Assembly (NCBI GenBank): GCA_903901425.1
Contig: CAIURC010000170.1
Span: forward strand, 1-48,861
Length of the DNA stretch: 48,861 nt
Source: an uncultured Spartobacteria bacterium
Lineage (GTDB): Bacteria > Verrucomicrobiota > Verrucomicrobiia > Chthoniobacterales > Chthoniobacteraceae
Reading direction: 5' to 3'
A program made the position numbers and the translations under genes. Under the pieces are notes generated by a model, which saw only the letters and a list, made by a program, of their open reading frames with translations, was not told the DNA's origin and did no database searches. Below, one piece after another: positions 5,469-43,910 of this stretch (the first letter of the stretch is position 1; every line of letters starts with the position of its first letter).

Positions 5469-7580
5469 ATGAAATTCCCCCCCCATCTTTGGCGTCCGCT
5501 GGTTCTGGCTTCCGTGTTTCTGGGTGTTTTTCCCGCGTACGGGAAGGAGAAGAACAAAAACCGTCGCCAGCCTGAGGCGGGGCCCAGTCAGGCGGTGCAG
5601 GCGCCGGAGCCTGAGGAACCGAAACTGGACCGGTGGAGGTCTTGGAGTGACGCGGAAGGACGCAAACTGGAGGCGGAGTACCGTGGGTTGAACGGGGACC
5701 AACTCGAAGTGCGTGCCCGGGACGGCAAAACCTACAAGCTCAGTTTGTCCAAATTGGTGGCGGCAGACCGGGAGTACGCGCTAAAACTCCAGAAGCAGCT
5801 GCCGCCCCCGCTGCATGAGGCGGCGGCCCGGATAGACGCGTTGGTGCTCGAGGGGCTGACCAAGGCCGGGAAAAAACCCAACCCGCCTTTGGGGGATGAG
5901 CAGTTTGTGCGGCGGGTTTATCTGGATTTGGCGGGCAGAATTCCCACGGCCACGGAGGCTTCCGCATTTCTGACGGACAAACGGGAGGGGAAAAGGGAGC
6001 GCTTGGTGGACGCGCTTTTGGAGGGGCCCGGATACAACTCGCAGATGTTCAACTGGCTGGCGGACATGTTGCGGATCATGGACGATTACGGCAAGGGGGT
6101 CCGGACCTATCTCTACGAGGAATGGGTAAAGGAACAGCTCACTCTGAACCGCCCTTGGGACCGGTTTGTCCGGGATCTGATGACCGCCGAGGGGCGCCTT
6201 TCGGACACCGGTCAGGTGGGTTACCTGCTCCGGGATCGGGGAATGCCGTTGGACAACCTGTCCAACACCCTGACGACCTTCCTTGGGGCCAATGTGGCCT
6301 GCGCCCAGTGCCACAACCATCCGCTTGCCCCATGGACGGAAAAGGATTTCTACGGGATGGCCGCATTTTTTGGAGCCACGGACACCACCTACGTCAAGGC
6401 GACCGGGATGGCCAAACGGATGGCCAAGACCACGGACGTGGACAAGGGGACATTGCTTCGGATTCTCGCGCCGAATCTGGCCGAGGTGGAAACGATTGGC
6501 AGCGTGACCACGAAACTCCCCGAGGATTATAAGTACTCCGATGGGAAACCCGGGGACGCCGTGGCGCCGAGCCTGATTGCCTGGGGTGAAAAAGACCGGG
6601 AGAACGGGGCTTATCAGGGAATCAAGACCGATTCCCCGGCGCTGCTGCGGCAGCAGTTCGCGAAGTGGATGACCCACCCGGAAAATCCCCGGTTTGCAAC
6701 CGCCATTTCCAACCGGCTTTGGAAAAAGTTGTTTGGTTTGGGGGTGCAGGAACCGGTGACCGATTTGGACGACCTCACAAAAGCTTCGAATCCGGAATTG
6801 CTGGCTGGGCTCTCCGATTTGATGCGGCGGGTCCGGTTTGATCTGAAGGAGTTTCAACGGGTTCTGGTGAACACGCAGGCGTATCAGAGGCAGGCCAGCG
6901 TGACCCCGGATCCCTCCAAGGGGCCTTACCTGTTCCCTGGTCCTGTGCTGAGGCGGATGAGTGCCGAACAGACCTGGGATTCGGTTCTGGCTCTGGTGGT
7001 GGGCAACGCAGTGGACGGATTCCGTTTGCAGCGTGCGGACTGGGTGCGTGAAGTGGACCTTGAGGGGGCAGTCACACAGGAGGCGGTTGTTGCCAAGGCG
7101 CGGGAGTTGTCCGAGGGGACGACTGGCAAGAGGAAAGGCAGGCAGGGCCGGAAAGGGGACACCTCGGTGGAGTCCGACTACGGGGATTATCCGCCTCCTA
7201 AGGTGGACGGGTTGATTCTGGCCCGGGCCTCGGAGTTGCAGCAACCCTCCAAGGAAGCCCATTTCCTGCGGATGTTTGGGCAGTCGGACCGGCAGGTGGC
7301 TGACAGCAACAGCGTGGAGGGGGGCATTCCTCAGGTGCTCATGTTGATGAATGGGGATGTCCAAAAAGTGATCAGCGGGGAACGATCCCAAGTTCTGAAG
7401 GATGCGGCCAAGGAGAAGACCCCTGAGAAGCAGATTGAATCCTTCTATTTCAGTTTTCTCGGGAGGCGGCCCTCGATTTTGGAACGGGAGTACGCGCGCA
7501 AACTGCTCGGCTCGGGGCTGAAGCTGAGCGATCTGGCGTGGGTCATGTTTAACACACGCGAATTCATGTTTATCCAGTAG
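5469..7580 (+). CDS. DUF1549/DUF1553 secreted protein with N-terminal SHD1-like domain
   Basis: 703 aa from ATG 5469, chosen because it gives a signal peptide (LVLASVFLGVFPAYG); the frame is open back to 5016 but that would overlap the lipoprotein gene. After the signal comes a basic/Pro linker, an SHD1-like module (about 55-110; RWRSWSDAEGRKLEAEY, KTYKLSLSKL), the DUF1549 domain (about 118-330) and DUF1553 (about 390-700; NPRFATAISNRLWKKLFG). A CxxCH motif (C278-C281-H282) lies in DUF1549. The N-terminal cytochrome-like PSCyt1 domain common in relatives is absent, the SHD1 module occupying its place. These proteins are predicted periplasmic; their reaction is not established. The next gene is a DUF1501 protein 49 bp downstream, the usual partner, so the two likely form an operon. 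Confidence 0.88.
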   Translation: MKFPPHLWRPLVLASVFLGVFPAYGKEKNKNRRQPEAGPSQAVQAPEPEEPKLDRWRSWSDAEGRKLEAEYRGLNGDQLEVRARDGKTYKLSLSKLVAADREYALKLQKQLPPPLHEAAARIDALVLEGLTKAGKKPNPPLGDEQFVRRVYLDLAGRIPTATEASAFLTDKREGKRERLVDALLEGPGYNSQMFNWLADMLRIMDDYGKGVRTYLYEEWVKEQLTLNRPWDRFVRDLMTAEGRLSDTGQVGYLLRDRGMPLDNLSNTLTTFLGANVACAQCHNHPLAPWTEKDFYGMAAFFGATDTTYVKATGMAKRMAKTTDVDKGTLLRILAPNLAEVETIGSVTTKLPEDYKYSDGKPGDAVAPSLIAWGEKDRENGAYQGIKTDSPALLRQQFAKWMTHPENPRFATAISNRLWKKLFGLGVQEPVTDLDDLTKASNPELLAGLSDLMRRVRFDLKEFQRVLVNTQAYQRQASVTPDPSKGPYLFPGPVLRRMSAEQTWDSVLALVVGNAVDGFRLQRADWVREVDLEGAVTQEAVVAKARELSEGTTGKRKGRQGRKGDTSVESDYGDYPPPKVDGLILARASELQQPSKEAHFLRMFGQSDRQVADSNSVEGGIPQVLMLMNGDVQKVISGERSQVLKDAAKEKTPEKQIESFYFSFLGRRPSILEREYARKLLGSGLKLSDLAWVMFNTREFMFIQ

Positions 7581-20440: not shown

Positions 20441-22783
20441 TCACTGTGTCTGGGCTGACTTGGGTTCGGCAGTCCACACCAACAATTCCCGGAACTCGGC
20501 CCCGCCCTTTTTTGCAGTTAAAATCAGAGAGCCTTTCACGTTTCTGCGGATGTCCCGGTTTTTTCCGGAACCTACCGGACGACCGTCCACCGCGACCGAA
20601 ACCTCGTCGTTCACCACTTCCAGACGCAGCGAATGCCACTGGTCTGCCGAGATTGGGCAGGGTTCTGAGAAGAGGATTTTGTCCAAGACCCATCGGGCAC
20701 CGTTGGGCGGAGTCGAAGGGCAGGAAACCGTGCATTTGCCATCGGCCAGCAACAATTCACACAATGCAGATTTGTCGAAAGAAAGTGCCGCCGAAAGAGA
20801 ACTGCAGCCCGCAAAACGAAACCCGACTTCGATCACCACATCTCCCACCGAGGGTATCAACCGGGAGAAGGAGGCATCTCCTCCGGGTTGAGATGGTTGT
20901 CCTGAAAGCACGCCAGCGCGCAACGCCCAAGCTCCATCCTCAGCCTTGTGCTCATCTTTCTTCGGGAACCCTGCAAAGTCATCTCTGAAGAGCATTTCAG
21001 ACCGAGCAGCAATTGTACCCGGTTGCAGCAGAGACACTCCTTGGGCCTTGAGTTCCCGCTCCGCCAAGCGCACGAGCTCCGGCTCCAGTTCTACGAGACG
21101 ATAGGAGGCAAAGCGTTTGGCCTCCGGAGTTTTCTCCTTTTTCACCCGGTCCATCTCCATCCGGTACATGGTGAAGTCATCCACCTTGCCACCGGCAACT
21201 GCCAGCAAACCGTCCATCCAATTGAAATCTGAAACGGGCGCCCTCAAGCGAAACTCGCGCAGCAACTCCACCGCGCTGACGAGGTTCCCATCCTTCCAAC
21301 GAGTCAAACCAGACACCAGCAGGCTCAGGGTGCGCGGGTCCCCTTTGGCCACGGTTTTGAGTTGGTCCATGTCCGGGCTAACTTCCGGTTTTTTGAGGAT
21401 TCTACCGGCCTCAAACAGGGCGGCGGTAATCGGAACGATTTTCTTTTTGGGACGGGCAGCAATCTTTTCGAGATTAGCCAAGAAAGAAGCCACCGACTCC
21501 GAATCACCAGCTTCCCATGCCGCCACCGCCCCCAAGAGGCTGGAAACCGCCGCATAATCCTCATCCTGAGCAGCTTGCGACACGTATTTACGGAAAATCC
21601 CAACCGCCTCCTTGGGGTGGCCGGCAGAAAGCTCGTTGCGTCCTTCCTGAACCAACGCCGGCACCGCAGCCAGTTTCCGCATCTCTGAGCCACTGGATTT
21701 GAGGCAACTGCGTAAGCCAAAAACCGCCCCCACCAGCATCAGGAGCAGAATGACCCCCGCAAACACAACGCTCGCCTTGTTCTCCGATGGATCGTCGAGG
21801 ACAATCCGCTGCGGAGTCGAATCCGGCTTGCCCGCGAGCAGCTCGTCCCGGGCGTACTGCAGATGCTCAATGAGCTCATCGTAGCTCTGGTAGCGCTGGT
21901 CAGGGTCTTTCAACAGGGTCCGGTCAATGATGTAAGCGGTCCTCGAAGAAATGTGCGGTGCAAACGCCTGAAGGCGGACCGGCTGCGATTTGAGGTGTTT
22001 GTAGGCCACCAGACTCGCATTGGGCGCCTCAAAGGGTGGGCGGCCTGTCAGGGCATGAAAAAGGGTGCCTCCCAGAGAATAAATGTCGCTTCGGAAATCC
22101 TCCGGCTTTCCATCGAGTTTTTCAGGCGCCACATAATAGGGCGTTCCCCAAACCTCGCCCCGCGCCGACTCCTCCTGCTCCATAAACAGGGCCAGCCCAA
22201 AATCCACGATTTTTGCGGAGTCTGGATCGGAAAACAGGATGTTGGCGGGTTTGACGTCGCGATGGATCAGGTTGTGCTGGAGAGCCGCCTTGAGGCCCAT
22301 GGCGATCTGGATGCCCACCTGAAGGGCCTGGAGTTCCGAAATACCGCCCTGGATCCGGATCAGATCGTCCAGAGAGCCTTTGTCCACCAGTTCCATGGCC
22401 AGATAGAACCGGCCCGCATCCAAACCGGTTGAGAATACCCGGACCACATGGGGGTGGTTAATCGAGGCAGTGATGGCGGCCTCGACGGCCAGCTTTTCGA
22501 TCAGCTCGGAACTTCCCGAGTCATCGCGTTTGAGCACTTTAAGGGCAACCTCGCGGTTCAGGCCCGAATCCAGAGCCCGGTAGACGACACCCATACCGCC
22601 GCGACCCGCCAGAGAGACCAACTGGAAGGGGCCGATGAAATTGCCGATCTGGATCTCGGAACCGCATCCTGGACAGGCAATGACCGAGAGCGGTTCAATC
22701 TCCGTGACATCGATGGCCGTTCCGCAGAGCGGACAGTTCTCACGTTGCTGCTGGTTATTTTCTGAAAGCGAACCCGGATCCAT
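20441..22783 (-). CDS. Transmembrane Ser/Thr protein kinase with zinc ribbon and C-terminal lectin-like domain
   Basis: 780 aa. The N-terminus has a zinc ribbon (C17-C20, C37-C40). The kinase domain (about 52-325) has an intact P-loop GRGGMGVVY, ATP-binding K82 (ALKVLK), HRDVKPANILF, VDFGLA and GTPYYVAPEKLDG, so should be active. One membrane segment follows (about 345-367; VVFAGVILLLMLVGAVFGL). The outer part has a helical, TPR-like region and a C-terminal beta-rich domain (about 615-775; WHSLRLEVVNDEVSVAVDGRPVG) resembling the concanavalin/DUF1080 fold, which could bind glycans. The likely topology is cytoplasmic kinase, periplasmic sensor. ThuA-like and hydrolase genes follow on the same strand. 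The 349-bp region upstream has AT-rich inverted repeats. Confidence 0.88.
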   Translation of the reverse strand: MDPGSLSENNQQQRENCPLCGTAIDVTEIEPLSVIACPGCGSEIQIGNFIGPFQLVSLAGRGGMGVVYRALDSGLNREVALKVLKRDDSGSSELIEKLAVEAAITASINHPHVVRVFSTGLDAGRFYLAMELVDKGSLDDLIRIQGGISELQALQVGIQIAMGLKAALQHNLIHRDVKPANILFSDPDSAKIVDFGLALFMEQEESARGEVWGTPYYVAPEKLDGKPEDFRSDIYSLGGTLFHALTGRPPFEAPNASLVAYKHLKSQPVRLQAFAPHISSRTAYIIDRTLLKDPDQRYQSYDELIEHLQYARDELLAGKPDSTPQRIVLDDPSENKASVVFAGVILLLMLVGAVFGLRSCLKSSGSEMRKLAAVPALVQEGRNELSAGHPKEAVGIFRKYVSQAAQDEDYAAVSSLLGAVAAWEAGDSESVASFLANLEKIAARPKKKIVPITAALFEAGRILKKPEVSPDMDQLKTVAKGDPRTLSLLVSGLTRWKDGNLVSAVELLREFRLRAPVSDFNWMDGLLAVAGGKVDDFTMYRMEMDRVKKEKTPEAKRFASYRLVELEPELVRLAERELKAQGVSLLQPGTIAARSEMLFRDDFAGFPKKDEHKAEDGAWALRAGVLSGQPSQPGGDASFSRLIPSVGDVVIEVGFRFAGCSSLSAALSFDKSALCELLLADGKCTVSCPSTPPNGARWVLDKILFSEPCPISADQWHSLRLEVVNDEVSVAVDGRPVGSGKNRDIRRNVKGSLILTAKKGGAEFRELLVWTAEPKSAQTQ

Positions 22784-36145: not shown

Positions 36146-37978
36146 TCAGAATGGATGGGAACCGGCGGCCGCACCGGTTTTGGACACGGGGCTGGGTTCG
36201 ATTTGGTCCGTGGTGAGCATCCGTTTCACCAGATGGGTAAGGACCGGGTCCCTTTTGCCTTTGACCGTCAAAGGTTCGCGGCTCTCCACCTCCACCTCAG
36301 ACTCCACCAACCGGTAGGCGGCGTCACTGAGCAGGATGCCCCCCGGCGGCGCCTGTCCTTCCAAACGCTGCGCAAGGTTGACCGGATCCCCGATCACGGT
36401 GAATTCGCGGCGGTGAAACTTGCTGCCCAGATCGCCCAGCATGACCGTCCCGGTGTTGATCCCGATGCGGATGCTGACGGGTTGTTCCCGCTCCTGATTG
36501 AAGTCTTCAAGAGCCTCCAACATTTCCAAAGAGGCACAAACGGCATCGTGAGTGCCCTCGGAGCTTCCCTGGAAGAGGGCCAGCAACGCGTCCCCAATGA
36601 ACTTGTCAATCACGGCGCCGTGCCGCTTGAGCACCTGAACCATTGCATCGAAATAGCCGTTGAGGAACTCCACCACTTCCGCGGGGGGGATTCGCTCGCA
36701 CAATTCAGAAAACCCGACGATGTCAGTGAAAACAATGGTCAGGGTCTGTTCCCGGGCACGCATGGGAACCCAGAGCGCGGATTTTTTATCGGCCAGTCGG
36801 GCTGCGTGCTCGGCAGCGGCGTCTGAGAGATAGAGCCGCATCACATCCTTTTCGCGTTCGAGGCGGTGCGCCGCCAGGAGACGCTCGATGCTGACCAGCA
36901 ATTTGTCGGCAGCAAACGGCTTGGAAATGTACTCGTTGACCCCGGCCACACGCCCCTTGGCCCGCTCCACCTTCGAGTCCCGGGAACTGAGCATGATGAT
37001 CGGCACCCGTTCATACTCCGGAAGAGCCCGGGTTCTGCGAACCAGTTCGAGTCCGTCCATGACCGGCATCTCGCTGTCGGTCAGCAGTAGCGCCACATTC
37101 TGAGTTTCAAGATACCGCAGGGCCTCGACACCATGGGCCGCCAGAATGACCCCGAACCCCTGCTGCCCCAGACTCTGGCCCACCATGTTCCGGACCATGG
37201 GGCTGTCGTCGACCACCAAAATAGTTTCCTGCCTGTAAATCCGGTTATGGGGCAGAAGCAGGTTCACCCGGTTCTGCAATTCCTCGGCCACAATCGGCTT
37301 GGTGATGTAATCGTCAGCGCCCGCAGCAAATGCGCGGTCGATGTCGAATCCCGAATTCAGGCTGGACTGGACCAGCACCGGAACGGAGTTCAGCAGAGGG
37401 TTGGACTTGATCGCCCAGCAGAGCTCGTACCCGTTCATTCCCGGCATTTCGATATCTGAAATCACCAAGTCGGCCCGGCGTTGTCCCAGCCATTCCAGCG
37501 CCTCGGCACCGTTGTAGGCGGAGTGGATTTCGTAATCCGCATCCCCCAAGATCTCGGTAACGACACGGTGGACCATGCTGCTGTCGTCCACCAGGAGGAT
37601 GGTTTCACGCTTGAGCAACGCCTTTTCAAGCACGGCGATCATCTCCTCCCCCGAAAACGGCACCCGGAGAAAGCCTGCTGCGCCCGCCAGACGCGCCAGA
37701 AGACGCCCCTCCTCCTCCGTGGAAAGAATAACGACGGGAAGGCGCCGTCCATTCAGCGCCCCCTTGAGCATTCTGCAAATCTCAAACCCGGTGTACGGCG
37801 CCAGTTGTGCCTGAAGGAGGACAAGGTCCGGCTGCAAGTCCTCCACCCGGTCTGCTATGGATGGGGCGTTGCCCTCCACGTGGAGAACCCAGCCTTGACC
37901 ATCCAAGTAACGCCGGATCATCCCCTCGTAGACCCGGTTGTCCGTCACCAGCAGTAGTGTGCCCCGATCCTCCATCAC
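36146..37978 (-). CDS. Triple-receiver adenylate/guanylate cyclase
   Basis: 610 aa from GTG 37978 (AAGGG 7 nt upstream) or ATG 37975. Three receiver domains: REC1 (about 7-122) lacks the phospho-acceptor, having Gln56 at the Asp position, and has Val106 instead of the Lys; REC2 (about 127-243) is complete with D175 and K227; REC3 (about 253-369) is complete with D301 and K353. The class III nucleotide cyclase domain (about 410-600) has both metal Asp, D419 (FTDIVGFSEL) and D463 (KFIGDALLALF), and K459, which suits ATP. It probably makes cAMP under control of phosphorelay input. No histidine kinase adjoins. Cytoplasmic, no membrane segment. Confidence 0.93.
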   Translation of the reverse strand: MMEDRGTLLLVTDNRVYEGMIRRYLDGQGWVLHVEGNAPSIADRVEDLQPDLVLLQAQLAPYTGFEICRMLKGALNGRRLPVVILSTEEEGRLLARLAGAAGFLRVPFSGEEMIAVLEKALLKRETILLVDDSSMVHRVVTEILGDADYEIHSAYNGAEALEWLGQRRADLVISDIEMPGMNGYELCWAIKSNPLLNSVPVLVQSSLNSGFDIDRAFAAGADDYITKPIVAEELQNRVNLLLPHNRIYRQETILVVDDSPMVRNMVGQSLGQQGFGVILAAHGVEALRYLETQNVALLLTDSEMPVMDGLELVRRTRALPEYERVPIIMLSSRDSKVERAKGRVAGVNEYISKPFAADKLLVSIERLLAAHRLEREKDVMRLYLSDAAAEHAARLADKKSALWVPMRAREQTLTIVFTDIVGFSELCERIPPAEVVEFLNGYFDAMVQVLKRHGAVIDKFIGDALLALFQGSSEGTHDAVCASLEMLEALEDFNQEREQPVSIRIGINTGTVMLGDLGSKFHRREFTVIGDPVNLAQRLEGQAPPGGILLSDAAYRLVESEVEVESREPLTVKGKRDPVLTHLVKRMLTTDQIEPSPVSKTGAAAGSHPF

Positions 37979-38045
37979 CGGGAAGCCCTTCCCCTCCTAA
38001 GCCAAATGCGGGGAGCCCTCGCCAACCACCTCCGGGTCAAGATAC

Positions 38046-38807
38046 TCACAAGGCCTGTGGGCGAAACTGACGAAGCGCTCCCGTGACGGGATCCACCTGA
38101 AGCGTGTAATAGTTGATGGGACGCCCGTTCTTGTCCCGGACGGTGTCCTGCTTGGGGTTCAGTTCCGACCCGTGCAGGGTCACGTACCAGTTCCCCATTT
38201 GGGCCCCGGCAGCGGGCAAATCTGTTGATCCGTCCGGCATGAATCTGAAGGAGGTGTAGAGGTAATTCCGCCCGACTCCCCGGGGAAGCTCCGGAAGCGT
38301 GGGATCCCCGGTGGCATCCACCGGCGGCCTGACGTTCTCGTCGAGAAGGCTGGAAAGAAAACCGCCGCTGAGGATCACCGTCGTGGGGAGCCTCTGAAGA
38401 TTGCTGATCGGGGTCTGAATCCCGGAAGGCTGATTCTCAAACACCTGCATCCCTCGGAAAACCCAGCTCTTGGGATCCTTGAGATTCTCACCTGGAATCT
38501 CGGGATCTGCAAACCGATAGAACCGCAACTCCACCGGATTGTTCCGGGTCAAGGCCATCTGTCGGGCAAGCACAAACTGGTCATACAGCGACTGGGAAGC
38601 TTGAGTGAGCTGGGAACCCTTCATCATGGTCTGGGTGGCCGGAACCGTCAGTCCGATCAGAATCGCGATGACGGAACAGACCACCAGAAGCTCCACCAAC
38701 GAGAAACCCGCGCTCCGACCTAGGTGGAATCCGGTCCAAACCCCGCGGGATGCCCGGGTGAAACCTGAGGCTGGCGCTGGGCGGCCGAAGGCATTTATGA
38801 GTCTCAT
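38046..38807 (-). CDS. Pseudopilin with prepilin methylation signal, Verru_Chthon cassette D-like
   Basis: 253 aa from ATG 38807; ATG 38834 is an alternative. A long leader (34 residues) ends in the prepilin peptidase site G34-F35, followed by FSLVELLVVCSVIAILIGL with the +5 Glu39, the hydrophobic alpha-1 of a type II pseudopilin. The rest (SLYDQFVLARQMALTRNNPVE, RFYRFADPEIPGE, WYVTLHGSEL) resembles the Verrucomicrobium/Chthoniobacter cassette protein D family. The cassette's A, B and C genes and any secretion ATPase are absent from the window, so this copy seems isolated. It is divergent from the FHA cyclase gene, sharing a 169-bp promoter region. Confidence 0.82.
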   Translation of the reverse strand: MRLINAFGRPAPASGFTRASRGVWTGFHLGRSAGFSLVELLVVCSVIAILIGLTVPATQTMMKGSQLTQASQSLYDQFVLARQMALTRNNPVELRFYRFADPEIPGENLKDPKSWVFRGMQVFENQPSGIQTPISNLQRLPTTVILSGGFLSSLLDENVRPPVDATGDPTLPELPRGVGRNYLYTSFRFMPDGSTDLPAAGAQMGNWYVTLHGSELNPKQDTVRDKNGRPINYYTLQVDPVTGALRQFRPQAL

Positions 38808-38976
38808 GGGGGTATGAAAAGGGGGTGCTTGCATATCCTTCGCCTGAAATCCTACGCGTTTGGTGGGCCTCTTGCCATCCGTTTTTGGCACAAAAACGGC
38901 GCGTCCCCTTGCGCGCAGCCCAGAAGCCGGCTTGTCTGGAACGCACGCCCCCGGCACACTTGCGCACCTCCATGCC

Positions 38977-40569
38977 ATGACTTCCCCCCACGCGGCCCCA
39001 TCCGCCCCCGCAGCGCCTGTCGCATTGATCCAGTTGCGGCTCGACGACTCCTCTCTGGTCGAACACGGACTTCCCGCAGGAACCTTTATCTTGGGCCGGG
39101 ACCCGTCCTGCGATCTGGTGATTCCCTCCAAAGGCGTGTCCCGCAAACATATCCAGATCTCCCTTTCTGCAACCGGGCAGCATGTCCAAATTGAGGATCT
39201 GGGAAGCACTGCGGGGACGTTCATGGGCGCGAGCCGGATCCAGGAGAAAACCCGGCTTCCCCTGCCCTGCCAAATCCGGCTGGGTCACCTGCCCGTAAGG
39301 ATCCGCTCGGCTGAACACTCAGAGGAGGACGAGGCGTTCCGAGGGATTGGACTCAGTCTGAGTGCCGCGGACAGGCATGCGCCCTCGGTGGAGGGAATTG
39401 GCACCCGTGCGCAGCAGCGGTTGGAGCTGCTTTACGAACTGCCCCTGAGGTTCGCAGAGGAGACGGATTCAAACCGGCTTTTCACCCTGATCTTGGAACG
39501 CGTCACCGCGCTCATTCCGGGGGCTGTGCGGGGGGCGCTTCTTCTCAAGGATGGCGAGTCGCAGAACCTCGCTCTGAAGGCCAGCATCTCCCCGGGCACA
39601 CCGGCGGTGAGCCGGTCGCTCATCTTGCGGGCCGCCCAAGACCAGCAGGGGTTTATCTGGGGCGGACACCCCTCCGAACAGGCGGACGCCTCCGCGAGCA
39701 TTGCGGCACTCGGCATCCAGACGGCCATGTACGCTCCTCTGGTCTGGAAGAAGGAAACCATCGGCGTCCTTTTTTTTGATAACCCGAACCGTCCAGACGC
39801 ATTCGGGGCCGAGGACCTCCGATTCCTCATTTCAGTGGCCCATTATGCCGCTGCCGCCGTCGCCAACCAACTCCTGCAGAGCCGTTTGGAGCAGAACAAC
39901 CGGACTTTGGAGCATCTTCTCACCAACTTTTCCCCCGCCATACGCAACCAGCTCCTCGAAAAGTCCAGATCCGGACGCCTCCAGCCCGGAGGCGCAAAGT
40001 CCCGGGTTACGGTCCTTTTTTCCGATCTGCGCGGGTTCACTCGGACGGCTGCCGTTCACGATTCCGCCGTAGTGGTTGAGATGCTCAACGATTATTTCCA
40101 GGTACTCGGCGCGGAAATCTTCGCGCACGATGGAACCATCGACAAATTCATCGGGGACGGAATTCTTGCCGTGTTCGGCAGCCCGGAACCGGACCCGGAT
40201 CATGCGAGGAAAGCGGCTGCGGCCGCCGTTGCAATGCAGCGGAGGATTTCCGAGGTCAACCGGCGCCGGTCCGAATCCGGTTTGGTGTGCTGCGAGATGG
40301 GCATTGGGATCTGCACCGGGGAAGTTCTTCACGGGTTTATTGGAACCGAGGATTGCCTCCAGTACACGGTGATTGGAGACACGGTGAACATGGCTTCCCG
40401 CTATTGTGACGGAGCCAAGGCAGGCGAAGTCCTGCTTTCCCCTCTTGCAGCCGAAGCCATCGCGGGCGCTCTTCCGCTTGAACCCAGCTCAATTCCCACC
40501 AAACACGAGGGATTTCTCAATGCGTTCCGGCTTCACTGGGAGCCGGCAGAAAAATCGGCCGCCAGCTAG
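38977..40569 (+). CDS. FHA-GAF-class III nucleotide cyclase
   Basis: 530 aa from ATG 38977. An N-terminal FHA domain (about 18-108; ILGRDPSCDLVIPSKGVSRKH, DLGSTAGTF) binds phosphothreonine; the key R41, S55 and H58 are in place. A GAF domain (about 147-300; LFFDNPNRPDAFGAEDL) follows, then a helical linker and a cyclase domain (about 344-515) with metal Asp D350 (LFSDLRGFT) and D394 (KFIGDGILAVF) and substrate-binding K390. The FHA domain suggests control by a Ser/Thr kinase; one is encoded convergently right next door. The stop TAG shares bases CTAG with that kinase's stop. Cytoplasmic. Confidence 0.93.
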   Translation: MTSPHAAPSAPAAPVALIQLRLDDSSLVEHGLPAGTFILGRDPSCDLVIPSKGVSRKHIQISLSATGQHVQIEDLGSTAGTFMGASRIQEKTRLPLPCQIRLGHLPVRIRSAEHSEEDEAFRGIGLSLSAADRHAPSVEGIGTRAQQRLELLYELPLRFAEETDSNRLFTLILERVTALIPGAVRGALLLKDGESQNLALKASISPGTPAVSRSLILRAAQDQQGFIWGGHPSEQADASASIAALGIQTAMYAPLVWKKETIGVLFFDNPNRPDAFGAEDLRFLISVAHYAAAAVANQLLQSRLEQNNRTLEHLLTNFSPAIRNQLLEKSRSGRLQPGGAKSRVTVLFSDLRGFTRTAAVHDSAVVVEMLNDYFQVLGAEIFAHDGTIDKFIGDGILAVFGSPEPDPDHARKAAAAAVAMQRRISEVNRRRSESGLVCCEMGIGICTGEVLHGFIGTEDCLQYTVIGDTVNMASRYCDGAKAGEVLLSPLAAEAIAGALPLEPSSIPTKHEGFLNAFRLHWEPAEKSAAS

Positions 40570-43500
40570 TTCCGCTCCCCCCACGAAGAGGGCCCGAAAA
40601 CCTCCCACATCGGAGCTCCGCGCTGCCGCACCAAGAGCCTGCCTTCCGGTCCGGGACACAGGATGGTGGGTTCCCTCGAACCCAATCGGATCTCTCCCAA
40701 CGGACGGCCGGTGCCGGGATCCCACGCCCGGACGGTCATATCCTCAGAACTGCTGATCAAACGGCTGCTTTCCCAATCCCACGCCAGGTACAGAATCCGG
40801 CCATCGTGGGCAATAAAGTCCCGGGCGGGCTCAAGCGTTCTTCCATCCAGAAGCCGGATCCGCCGATCGCCACTGCTGCAGGCAATCCATCTCCCATCGG
40901 GCGAACCACTCAGACAGGTGATGCTGGGGGTGCGGCCACTGGCCTCCAATCGACCGTTTTTCGCATCCCACAGCCGGATCCCCCACCCGCTGGATTCCAC
41001 TTTTTCAGAGCCCTGCTCCAATGCTCCCCATTCCGCAAATCGCTCATTCCCGACCCAGAGTTTTTCGGTTTCCCCGCGGAAGGCCATGGAACGCTGATCG
41101 GCCGGGATTTCAAAAACCAGGTTTCCTGTGAAAACCTCAGACACGCTGCGGCCTTTGAGAAACCATTTTCCCTCCGGATTCAGGCACCGGGGAGTACAGC
41201 CTGCCAGCCATGGAGCATCCTGAACCCGGATTTCATCCCCCCGAATCTGAAATGCAGCGTTTTGAGCGCCGACCCCAATGAGCACCCCACCGTTGGATGC
41301 TCCAAAAATTTCATTCAACGGACCCTTTTGTTGAGATCCCAACAAGATCCGGGATTTGCCGGCGTTCCCGAGGTCTCTGTAGGCCAGCGGGTCCGTGTCC
41401 CTCCCGGTGCTGTTGAAGGCGATCCGCCCCGCATTGCCCATCCAACCGATGCTGCGTCCTGGCCACTGAATGGAAGCCAGAGGGGGCTCCTCCCGGAAGT
41501 TCCAGATCATCAGATTGCCTCTGGAGTAGACCGCAGTATGCCCGGTGCGTGGATCGACGCAGAGCCCTGGAATCTGCCCTTTGGAGCCCGGAACAAACAC
41601 TTCCCTCAGCCGGACTCCCGATTCCACATTCCAATACTGGAGACAACTCAGCCCCGCGTCACGCATCACCAGACTCACCAACTTGAGACCCGACACCCCC
41701 GACTCCATAAACTCAATTCGGAGCGCGTTGGGAACTCGGTGCCCAAACACTTTCGACCCGGTCTGGGTATCGGCCACCTCCAGTTGGCCCTGCCCCCAGT
41801 TCCAACTTGCCAGTTTCCCCCCCGAGGAACTCAGGCTGAACAGCCTTCGTGTTGGATCGAAAACGGGCGTCCGTACCCCCGTCTTCAGCACCCTGCCCGT
41901 CCGCGCTTCCATTTCACGATATGGCGCCTTGCTGGCCACCACCCTCACCTGATTTCCGTCGGGGCTGAACTCGCCCCAAACCCATCCGGGTTCCTCAATC
42001 TTTAAGCAAAGCTTTTCACTCGCCCAGTCCCATACCTCGAGATGCGTTCCGATTTCTCCCCCTTCCTTCGGCAGTTGATTCATGCCCTCAAGCAAAAGCA
42101 GACTCCCATCCCGGCTCAAACGCACGTTCAGATAGTGCAGGACTGGCAACTCGATCCCTTTGATTTTCTCCCCCTTCTCCCTCCGGAAAAAATTCACCTG
42201 TACCCCCGCGTTTTCCCGGGCCGTACACAACACTTTTCCATCTCCGCTCACCGCAAACCTCTTGATCCCAGGAGAGCGACCCGCATCCCACACCAACTCA
42301 CGCTTCCCGCTCTCACAATCCACACCCAAAATTTTCCCATCCGACTGGAGTCCCAGCAGACGCCCTGGAACCGCCGGGTCCGGGAGCACAGAGATCCAGA
42401 CATCCTTGCCGGGTGCCAGCGTCTCCACCACGCGATCCTGAGATTCCAGACGCCGGTTTAAGTATTCCCAATCCGCCTCCCGATCCGCCGCAGGGACCCG
42501 GTCCAGAGCCTCCCGCAAGGTCTCTGCTGCCGACTGCTCGTCCGCGTTCGAAGCCAAGGCCAGTTCGGCGCGCCTCGCAGATTCGCGCGCTTTTTTGGCA
42601 CTCGCTTCGGCCTCGATGGACCGCAACCGCGCAAGTTCAGCTTTCTGGAGCGCACGGGCTTCACTTTGCAAGAGACTCCATCCAAAAAAAATCCCCGCCC
42701 CGAGCAAAACCCCGGTGAGCGCTGAAACCGCACGGTTTCTGCGCACCAGCAGGAGGAGTTGACGCAGAAAACCGGCATTTTCGGCTTCCGTGGCATACCC
42801 CCGCAGATAGGCCTCAATCTCCCCCATCAACTCCACCACCCCCGGGTACCGGGATTCCTTCCGCGTGGAGAGCGCCTTTTTCAGCACCGCCCGAAGCCCC
42901 TCAGGAACCTGACGCACTCCCGAATCCGTCCGCTCCAACCGCTCCTCCCAATCCAACGACTCTGAAACCCAGGTTCCTTCTGAAACTTTGGAGAGGACCT
43001 CCTGGACGCTTCCCTCGCCCACCGGGGGGCGCAGGGACAGCAGGGAATACAACATCGCCCCGAGCGAATACACATCCGAACGCTCATCCATGTCCGACAA
43101 CCGCCCCTGAGCCTGTTCCGGTGCCATGTACTGGGGACTGCCAATCAGTGAACCTGCCAAGGTATGCCCGGCCCCGCTCCCCCCATCGCCCCCATCGCCC
43201 CCATCCCAGGCACAGCCCGGGAGCGCCGGATCCTCGCCCCGCCACTTTGCAATCCCCCAATCCATCACAAACACCTCCCCAAACTCCCCCACCATCACGT
43301 TGTCTGGCTTCAAATCCCGGTGTAAAACCCCGCGGGAATGGGCGTACGCCACCCCCTCACACACCTTGAGAAAAACCCCAAGCAACCGCCCTTGGTTGAA
43401 TTGCCGGCACACGGAATCGTCCCCTGCCCGCAGCCCCCGGATCACCTCCTGCAAGGTCCGGCCCCGAACCAGTTTCATGCTGTAGTAAGGCCTCCCATCC

Positions 43501-43910
43501 GCATCCCGCCCCAAGGCATGCACGGGCACAATGCTCGGGTGATCCAGTAGCGCAAGAACCCGCGCCTCTCGTTCAAACCGCCAGTCTCCCTCCACACCCA
43601 GCGTGCTGACCTTCAGCGCCACTTTCCTTCCCAACACCGGATCCTCGCACTCCAGCACACGCCCCATTCCTCCCCGAGCAATCTCTGCCCCCCACCGATA
43701 CCCTCCGACGCACGAACCGAGTTCCCCCTGCCGATCCAGCCGAACCGCAGAATCTGCGGAGGAAAAAACGATCGTCTGATCGGGATCTGCAGTTCCTCCA
43801 CCGCCCGCCCCCGGCAACTCGCTCCCGTGCTCGACCTCTGGCTTCGGCGCCAAAGGGGACGTTGACCCCGGGAAGGGCTGCGTTCCATTCGGGTCGAAAA
43901 TGTCTCCCAT
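40566..43910 (-). CDS. Ser/Thr protein kinase with membrane segment and C-terminal beta-propeller
   Basis: 1114 aa. Kinase domain about 70-370 with ARGGMGRVLE, ATP Lys K100, HRDLKPDNVMV, DWG (217-219) in place of DFG, and GSPQYMAPEQAQG. Between DWG and APE a Gly/Asp-rich repeat insert (about 235-250) lengthens the activation loop. The Ala-rich coiled coil (about 414-455) follows a membrane segment (about 395-413; AVSALTGVLLGAGIFFGW). The C-terminal about 600 residues are WD40-like blades (WISVLPDPAV, ITCLSGSPDGRWIACSSGD, MTVRAWDPGTGRPLGEI). If the segment spans the membrane the propeller is periplasmic and may sense a ligand. It is convergent with the FHA-cyclase gene, 4 bp overlap. Confidence 0.9.
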   Translation of the reverse strand: MGDIFDPNGTQPFPGSTSPLAPKPEVEHGSELPGAGGGGTADPDQTIVFSSADSAVRLDRQGELGSCVGGYRWGAEIARGGMGRVLECEDPVLGRKVALKVSTLGVEGDWRFEREARVLALLDHPSIVPVHALGRDADGRPYYSMKLVRGRTLQEVIRGLRAGDDSVCRQFNQGRLLGVFLKVCEGVAYAHSRGVLHRDLKPDNVMVGEFGEVFVMDWGIAKWRGEDPALPGCAWDGGDGGDGGSGAGHTLAGSLIGSPQYMAPEQAQGRLSDMDERSDVYSLGAMLYSLLSLRPPVGEGSVQEVLSKVSEGTWVSESLDWEERLERTDSGVRQVPEGLRAVLKKALSTRKESRYPGVVELMGEIEAYLRGYATEAENAGFLRQLLLLVRRNRAVSALTGVLLGAGIFFGWSLLQSEARALQKAELARLRSIEAEASAKKARESARRAELALASNADEQSAAETLREALDRVPAADREADWEYLNRRLESQDRVVETLAPGKDVWISVLPDPAVPGRLLGLQSDGKILGVDCESGKRELVWDAGRSPGIKRFAVSGDGKVLCTARENAGVQVNFFRREKGEKIKGIELPVLHYLNVRLSRDGSLLLLEGMNQLPKEGGEIGTHLEVWDWASEKLCLKIEEPGWVWGEFSPDGNQVRVVASKAPYREMEARTGRVLKTGVRTPVFDPTRRLFSLSSSGGKLASWNWGQGQLEVADTQTGSKVFGHRVPNALRIEFMESGVSGLKLVSLVMRDAGLSCLQYWNVESGVRLREVFVPGSKGQIPGLCVDPRTGHTAVYSRGNLMIWNFREEPPLASIQWPGRSIGWMGNAGRIAFNSTGRDTDPLAYRDLGNAGKSRILLGSQQKGPLNEIFGASNGGVLIGVGAQNAAFQIRGDEIRVQDAPWLAGCTPRCLNPEGKWFLKGRSVSEVFTGNLVFEIPADQRSMAFRGETEKLWVGNERFAEWGALEQGSEKVESSGWGIRLWDAKNGRLEASGRTPSITCLSGSPDGRWIACSSGDRRIRLLDGRTLEPARDFIAHDGRILYLAWDWESSRLISSSEDMTVRAWDPGTGRPLGEIRLGSREPTILCPGPEGRLLVRQRGAPMWEVFGPSSWGERN
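43182..43208. repeat. 9-bp tandem repeat coding for Gly-Asp-Gly in kinase
   Basis: Two exact copies and a partial third of CCCATCGCC, read on the minus strand as GGDGGDGG in the activation segment of the kinase at 40566-43910. In-frame repeats of this kind can change length by slippage. Confidence 0.7.

Follow-up and report, generated by a model that had tools for sequence, protein, structure and literature searches.

Do the four neighbouring genes at positions 36146–43910 of a contig from an uncultured Spartobacteria bacterium form one signalling system, or does a functional relationship connect only some of them? The window analysed here is the whole contig (C170; CAIURC010000170.1, 48,861 nucleotides), one of the 224 contigs of a 5.1 Mb genome (assembly GCA_903901425.1). 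A first-pass annotation had read the locus as a single signalling cluster. Pfam searches bore out its four genes and their positions, namely a class III cyclase with three receiver domains (REC-cyclase), a pseudopilin, a cyclase with an FHA and a GAF domain (FHA-GAF-cyclase) and a Ser/Thr kinase with a WD40 part. The gene positions in relatives showed that the four are neighbours, and neither a conserved unit nor one system. The meaningful pair may be the FHA-GAF-adenylate cyclase and the Ser/Thr kinase. For this reading we consider the chances evenly balanced: the kinase would write phosphothreonine, the FHA domain would read it, and synthesis of cyclic AMP (cAMP) would follow.

The FHA-GAF-cyclase as a predicted phosphothreonine reader

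The FHA-GAF-cyclase has 530 amino acids and is encoded at 38977–40569 (+); it was assigned from Pfam matches to FHA, GAF and Guanylate_cyc, from its orthologues and from alignments. Its FHA domain (39088–39285, +), located by a search of the genome for FHA domains and by alignment, carries the pocket residues R41, S55 and H58. These residues were invariant in all 16 aligned FHA-GAF-cyclases. In a second set of ten, which overlaps the 16-member alignment in the window protein and L051, R and S were kept in all ten proteins and H in nine. When compared with the pocket motifs GR, SxxH and NG named in the accessible text of PMC1262709, the window domain contains GR and SxxH, while the third motif reads AG. 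With its pocket residues in place, the domain is probably a reader of phosphothreonine.

A GAF domain (39508–39867, +; PF13492, 47.2 bits) lies between the FHA domain and the class III cyclase domain (39997–40452, +), the latter delimited by domain search and alignments. The cyclase domain has the two metal Asp residues (D350 and D394), the Lys/Thr pair (K390 and T464), the Asn (N471) and the Arg (R475) of an ATP-type class III cyclase, the active-site residue set expected of class III adenylyl cyclases. Only one of the 16 aligned proteins, the distant L069, lacks the first metal Asp. The purine-pair positions are K/T in CyaC of Spirulina and in PaCyaB, which also share the metal Asp pair with the window protein, and E/G in 2w01, titled guanylyl cyclase Cya2. 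We rejected guanylate specificity in favour of adenylate, since the window cyclase shows K/T, and the FHA-GAF-cyclase is probably an adenylate cyclase that makes cAMP. In the alignment, the REC-cyclase likewise keeps two metal Asp residues and the Lys/Thr pair, and the earlier statement that both cyclases retain the metal Asp residues and the ATP-type Lys holds.

CyaC and PaCyaB, both of which are gated by sensory modules other than an FHA domain, were among the 50 matches listed for a structural search with the predicted FHA-GAF-cyclase model. In this model (mean predicted local distance difference test score 79, predicted template modelling score 0.40), the single domains are fairly confident and their arrangement is not, so that it is silent on the route from FHA binding to catalysis. 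The N-terminal segments of five orthologues were variable and, by eye, had no conserved Thr before the FHA domain, which makes an FHA ligand in trans more likely. Eight cyclic nucleotide-binding matches were found in the host genome, so cAMP could be read in this organism.

The closest named relatives of the cyclase (52–59% identity) came from bins labelled Chthoniobacter flavus, Chthoniobacteraceae, Spartobacteria, Opitutus or Akkermansia. A pattern-based contig scan with the family alignment yielded 23 loci, with FHA, GAF and cyclase present in 21 (one cut by a contig end). The hosts were Verrucomicrobia, a Deltaproteobacterium, Chloroflexi, a Planctomycetales bin, Aminicenantes and an Acidobacterium. 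We also searched 387 genomes of the phylum, in most of which three candidates each were scored, and at least six further full-length loci were among the matches listed. We also observed a broken copy with an internal stop (L025; G016:C100, approximately 5738–6547), in which only parts of the FHA-GAF region were matched.

The window kinase and a threonine motif in related kinases

The kinase gene (40566–43910, −) encodes 1114 amino acids with a C-terminal WD40-type part, and its Pfam matches to Pkinase and WD40 agree with the 'propeller kinase' of the first-pass annotation. The protein kinase domain (42846–43691, −) matched PF00069 with 108.8 bits in the genome search and 104.8 bits in the Pfam scan of the window (cut-off 31.7) and contains the HRDLKP and DWG motifs, as expected of a Hanks-type Ser/Thr kinase. 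Residues 395–413, after the kinase domain, form a hydrophobic stretch with a mean Kyte-Doolittle value of 1.71 over 19 residues. The kinase is probably membrane-anchored, with the WD40 part outside the inner membrane. No FHA domain was matched in it by Pfam. Its 77-residue N-terminal tail contains the only [DE]xT[IVLM] motif of the protein, at Thr46 in DPDQTIVF (43773–43775, −). From the position of the motif and its enrichment in related kinases, Thr46 is a candidate phosphosite and may be an FHA docking site. A second Ser/Thr kinase is encoded in the window at 20441–22783, away from the four-gene locus, with a weak zinc-ribbon-like match at its start.

The enrichment was determined in 41 linkers of related kinases, a linker being the stretch from the FHA domain, or from the protein start, to the kinase domain. 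The motif [DE]xT[IVLM] occurred 35 times, in 24 of the 41 linkers, compared to 4.0 times in shuffled linkers, and none of 2000 shuffles reached 35. The Ser version occurred three times, compared to 4.6 in shuffled linkers. With one linker per cluster (22 linkers), the Thr motif was found 14 times vs 2.5 shuffled and the Ser motif twice vs 2.6. Of the tails, seven had been set aside: four belonged to other phyla, and the rest were a tail of a partial locus, a misread frame and a near-duplicate. The pattern yielded no tail for 8 of the 40 kinase regions, and one of the 41 linkers was empty. Both window kinases fall outside this set, as the pattern missed them. The Thr motif thus lies between the kinase domain and an FHA domain that is mostly degenerate (L165–L204 and the other linker loci), and in some kinases it is repeated (e.g. 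EVTIPQR).

FHA domains within the related kinases have mostly lost the pocket: among the kinases whose FHA domain was found by the model (33 genes, 29 with the Arg column aligned), Arg was kept in 4 of 29, and R, S and H together in 2 of 29. This is the premise of a broader relay from phosphothreonine to cAMP, in which expanded Chthoniobacteraceae-like kinases would phosphorylate the Thr motifs of their linkers; the readers would be separate proteins with an intact FHA domain, chiefly the FHA-GAF-cyclase. We hold this general relay to be quite unlikely. The genomes examined contain 4 to 66 Ser/Thr kinase matches each and, to our knowledge, few targets of such kinases are known in these phyla. 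A phosphothreonine-reading cyclase would be a defined second-messenger output for these kinases, and the Thr motif points to peptides open to direct testing.

For the pair in the window, we propose that the membrane kinase would phosphorylate a Thr, either T46 of its tail in the cytoplasm or one in a different protein, and that the intact FHA domain of the cyclase would bind this phosphothreonine. Binding, together with a GAF ligand, may then shift the GAF-cyclase helix and switch cAMP synthesis, and the cyclic nucleotide-binding proteins of the host would read the cAMP. In this scheme the domains, residues, gene order, kinase excess and Thr motif are observed, and we infer the membrane topology, the phosphorylation, the binding, the activation, the partner kinase and the output.

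Compatible with this proposal, the FHA-GAF-cyclase might act as a hub, recognising phosphothreonine in many of the host's kinases or in a shared adaptor, with the neighbouring kinase as one input of several. The occurrence of the Thr motif in so many linkers from several genomes favours a hub, as does the host genome, where R, S and H are retained in five or more of seven FHA matches, set against 20 kinase matches. Gene adjacency in several lineages, described below, suggests at least some specific pairs instead, and we regard a hub as rather unlikely. The host genome also encodes a 303-residue protein with an intact FHA domain (G000:C186; L207:1575–2483). Its weak cyclase match (20.7 bits) was not listed by the Pfam scan at E 1e-4.

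Kinase genes near FHA-GAF-cyclases

To what extent do kinases accompany FHA-GAF-cyclases elsewhere? We compared 28 FHA-GAF-cyclase loci with 80 further class III cyclases encoded in the same genomes, in flanks of up to 8 kb where the contigs allow, with distances taken to the kinase domain and not to the gene. Within 2.5 kb, a kinase domain was found at 7 of 28 FHA-GAF-cyclase loci (6/27 without the window) but at only 1 of 80 controls. Within 5 kb the counts were 7/28 (6/27 without the window) and 5/80, and within 8 kb 9/28 (8/27) and 7/80. Without the window, the one-sided Fisher test gave P = 0.0009 at 2.5 kb and P = 0.012 at 8 kb. The number of kinase matches per genome, with rounded genome sizes, led to an expectation of 0.81 among the 27 loci at 2.5 kb, where 6 were observed (P = 1.1e-4), and of 1.76 at 8 kb, where 8 were observed (P = 1.6e-4).

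For these counts, L050, L052, L053 and L055 were dropped as duplicates (the same loci as L021, L023, L024 and L022, respectively), as were L071 and L072, which are FHA-GAF only with no cyclase match, and the broken copy L025. Two of 82 controls, L085 and L087, had no cyclase hit with the model and were left out, giving the 80 used. Controls L088 and L113 match the model from the FHA end on, and L113, in which Pfam finds no FHA domain, is the sole control with a kinase within 2.5 kb.

In Aminicenantes both loci have a kinase gene next to the cyclase gene: in L068 the kinase ATG overlaps the cyclase stop codon, and in L070 it follows the stop after 5 bases. The two kinases are 45–47% identical to each other, and their genomes hold just 7 and 9 kinase matches, respectively. 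Such gene pairing was also found at the one Acidobacterium locus and at one of seven Chloroflexi loci. In L064, one small gene, acpS-like by eye, lies between cyclase and kinase.

Several observations weigh against a partnership of kinase and cyclase. At 5 kb, the Fisher test without the window gave only P = 0.028, and 2.5 kb was one of three distances that were tried once the 8 kb flanks were available. The controls were chosen by hand from listed hits, at most ten per genome, and do not represent all cyclases. Adding three weak control kinase hits (54–55 bits), which are outside the main count, raised the controls to 10/80 and P to 0.043 at 8 kb. Relatedness also weakens the excess. With one locus per cluster at 80, 65 and 50% identity (23, 17 and 9 clusters), the median P was 0.0005, 0.0013 and 0.030 at 2.5 kb and 0.002, 0.002 and 0.016 at 8 kb, with a 95th-percentile P at 50% identity of 0.22 and 0.08, respectively. 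Moreover, 19 of the 28 loci have no kinase in the examined flanks, including the same-genus L021 and six of the seven Chloroflexi loci. In the window itself, the kinase is not orthologous to those adjoining other FHA-GAF-cyclases, a possibility that our comparison rejected, and the two genes are convergent and not co-transcribed, so their adjacency is of a weak kind.

The neighbourhood might accordingly be a coincidence in a genome rich in kinases and cyclases, with the FHA-GAF-cyclase regulated from elsewhere and the local kinase irrelevant. The host genome has 20 Pkinase, 13 Guanylate_cyc and 7 FHA matches in its 5.1 Mb, so that some kinase close to some cyclase is unsurprising by itself. 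The convergent order and the lack of orthology just described fit a coincidence too, and among the FHA-cyclase loci of G002, G006, G012 and G020, a kinase was found in the examined flanks only at G012; it is 30% identical to the window kinase and separated from the cyclase by one called gene. The kinase excess near FHA-GAF-cyclases elsewhere and the direct kinase neighbours in kinase-poor genomes argue against coincidence, which we consider possible but doubtful. In one place of the host genome, kinase and cyclase matches fall in one 1782-residue open frame, probably a single protein (G000:C78:85345–90417).

Taken together, the proposed path from kinase to FHA domain to cAMP has moderate genomic support reaching past the window. 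This part of the first-pass annotation gains indirect support from the kinase excess, the intact pocket and the Thr linker motif in related kinases.

Neighbouring genes and known systems

In the window, the strand order across the REC-cyclase, pseudopilin, FHA-cyclase and kinase genes is − − + −, so that a single operon is impossible. The kinase and FHA-cyclase genes lie tail-to-tail with a 4 bp overlap of their ends, and the FHA-cyclase is divergent from the pseudopilin. A promoter scan gave 0 sites vs 1.9 expected.

In G002, of the same genus, the orthologues of the FHA-cyclase (60% identity), the REC-cyclase (~57–58%) and the pseudopilin (56%) are on three contigs, C18, C6 and C68, respectively. 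The two cyclase genes are each more than 24 kb from a contig end and the pseudopilin gene 631 bases from one. The window kinase has no clear orthologue in G002. Its matches were only paralog-like (33–36% identity over most of the length for the best), with 22 in its own genome including itself. In G001 and G003, also of the same genus, no full-length FHA-cyclase or REC-cyclase match was among the matches listed. A gene-by-gene comparison of 20 neighbourhoods showed that none of the four genes directly adjoins an orthologue of another, which disagrees with the same-order co-occurrence expected of a four-gene cluster. Unrelated neighbours in close relatives, the outcome that the first-pass annotation had itself named as a refutation, were thus found for three of the four genes, those of the REC-cyclase, the pseudopilin and the window kinase. 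A WD40 kinase gene in G016 (L041) has, two called genes away, a neighbour with a receiver-like match.

The REC-cyclase (610 amino acids; 36146–37978, −) was identified by three Response_reg stretches and a Guanylate_cyc match of 106.2 bits (cut-off 21.9), and the genome search for cyclase domains placed its cyclase domain at approximately 36224–36754 (−). It had been described as a triple-receiver cyclase. The three stretches are there, but receiver 1 is degenerate, with Gln for the phospho-Asp in both the window protein and the G002 orthologue. By eye, Asp and Lys are present in receivers 2 and 3, which leaves two functional-looking receivers.

The pseudopilin matched Verru_Chthon cassette protein D (TIGR02596, 115.8 bits, cut-off 70) and, by Pfam, N_methyl. 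Its open frame spans 38046–39224 (−), and the real gene is probably 38046–38807 (−), with a putative start at 38807. It is an orphan member of this cassette: the window contig has no match to cassette protein A, which in the host genome was found only on C133 and C98; the search covered protein A and not proteins B and C. By eye, the D gene of the ten best orthologues is also on a contig without a protein A match, although contig ends, as near the G002 pseudopilin, may hide partners. In the next-ranked orthologue, in G011, the D gene is ~1.7 kb from protein A. A literature search on Verru_Chthon cassettes found no papers. In five of eight other pseudopilin loci (L037, L038, L042, L045 and L046), the D orthologue adjoins a member of one ~350-residue family, and both members scanned match an HD domain.

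Control of a pilus by the locus was rejected because the pseudopilin is an orphan with no protein A match on the contig. In the first-pass annotation, the two cyclases and the kinase had been read as one device that possibly targets a pilus or a secretion structure. The adjacency in this one genome speaks for such a device, and so does G014 (L042), where a 334-residue kinase-like gene, 33% identical to part of the window kinase, is two called genes from a D-type pseudopilin. On the other side, the same-genus orthologues are on different contigs, with both cyclases far from the ends, orthologues of the two cyclases are absent from all eight other pseudopilin loci, five of which have the HD-type neighbour instead, and nothing was found that ties the kinase/FHA-cyclase pair to either structure. 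The gene positions in relatives largely refute a single device, which we consider highly improbable.

How does the proposed kinase/FHA-GAF-cyclase pair compare with known systems? Our literature search, with most subscription papers outside its reach, found no description of an FHA-gated adenylate cyclase or of an FHA-GAF-adenylate cyclase beside a kinase. The accessible text of one paper on Anabaena CyaD mentions no FHA domain. The WD40 Ser/Thr kinases of Planctomycetota are described, in the available text of PMC11032199, as membrane proteins with a WD40 array predicted to be periplasmic; they resemble the window kinase in joining a kinase to a WD40 array and differ in that the main text, as far as available, names no cyclase. 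The accessible text of PMC1262709 reports FHA-kinase fusions, a kinase-guanylate cyclase fusion in Myxococcus and FHA genes that cluster with kinases in Mycobacterium tuberculosis.

The closest parallel is DgcB of Bdellovibrio, an FHA-GGDEF diguanylate cyclase whose FHA domain, according to the accessible text of PMC6733907, binds its own N-terminal tail (phosphopeptide EKpTSIVAS). As in the window protein, an FHA phosphothreonine sensor is joined to a second-messenger cyclase, and for DgcB, too, that text leaves the phosphorylating kinase unidentified. The window protein differs in being a class III adenylate-type cyclase with a GAF domain in between, and its orthologues show by eye no conserved tail Thr for self-binding of this kind. 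The DgcB peptide and the T46 motif both have a hydrophobic residue at +3, which may be a resemblance in FHA ligand. FHA-gated synthesis of cyclic di-GMP, as that text describes it, is already known, and DgcB is a precedent for an FHA-gated cyclase.

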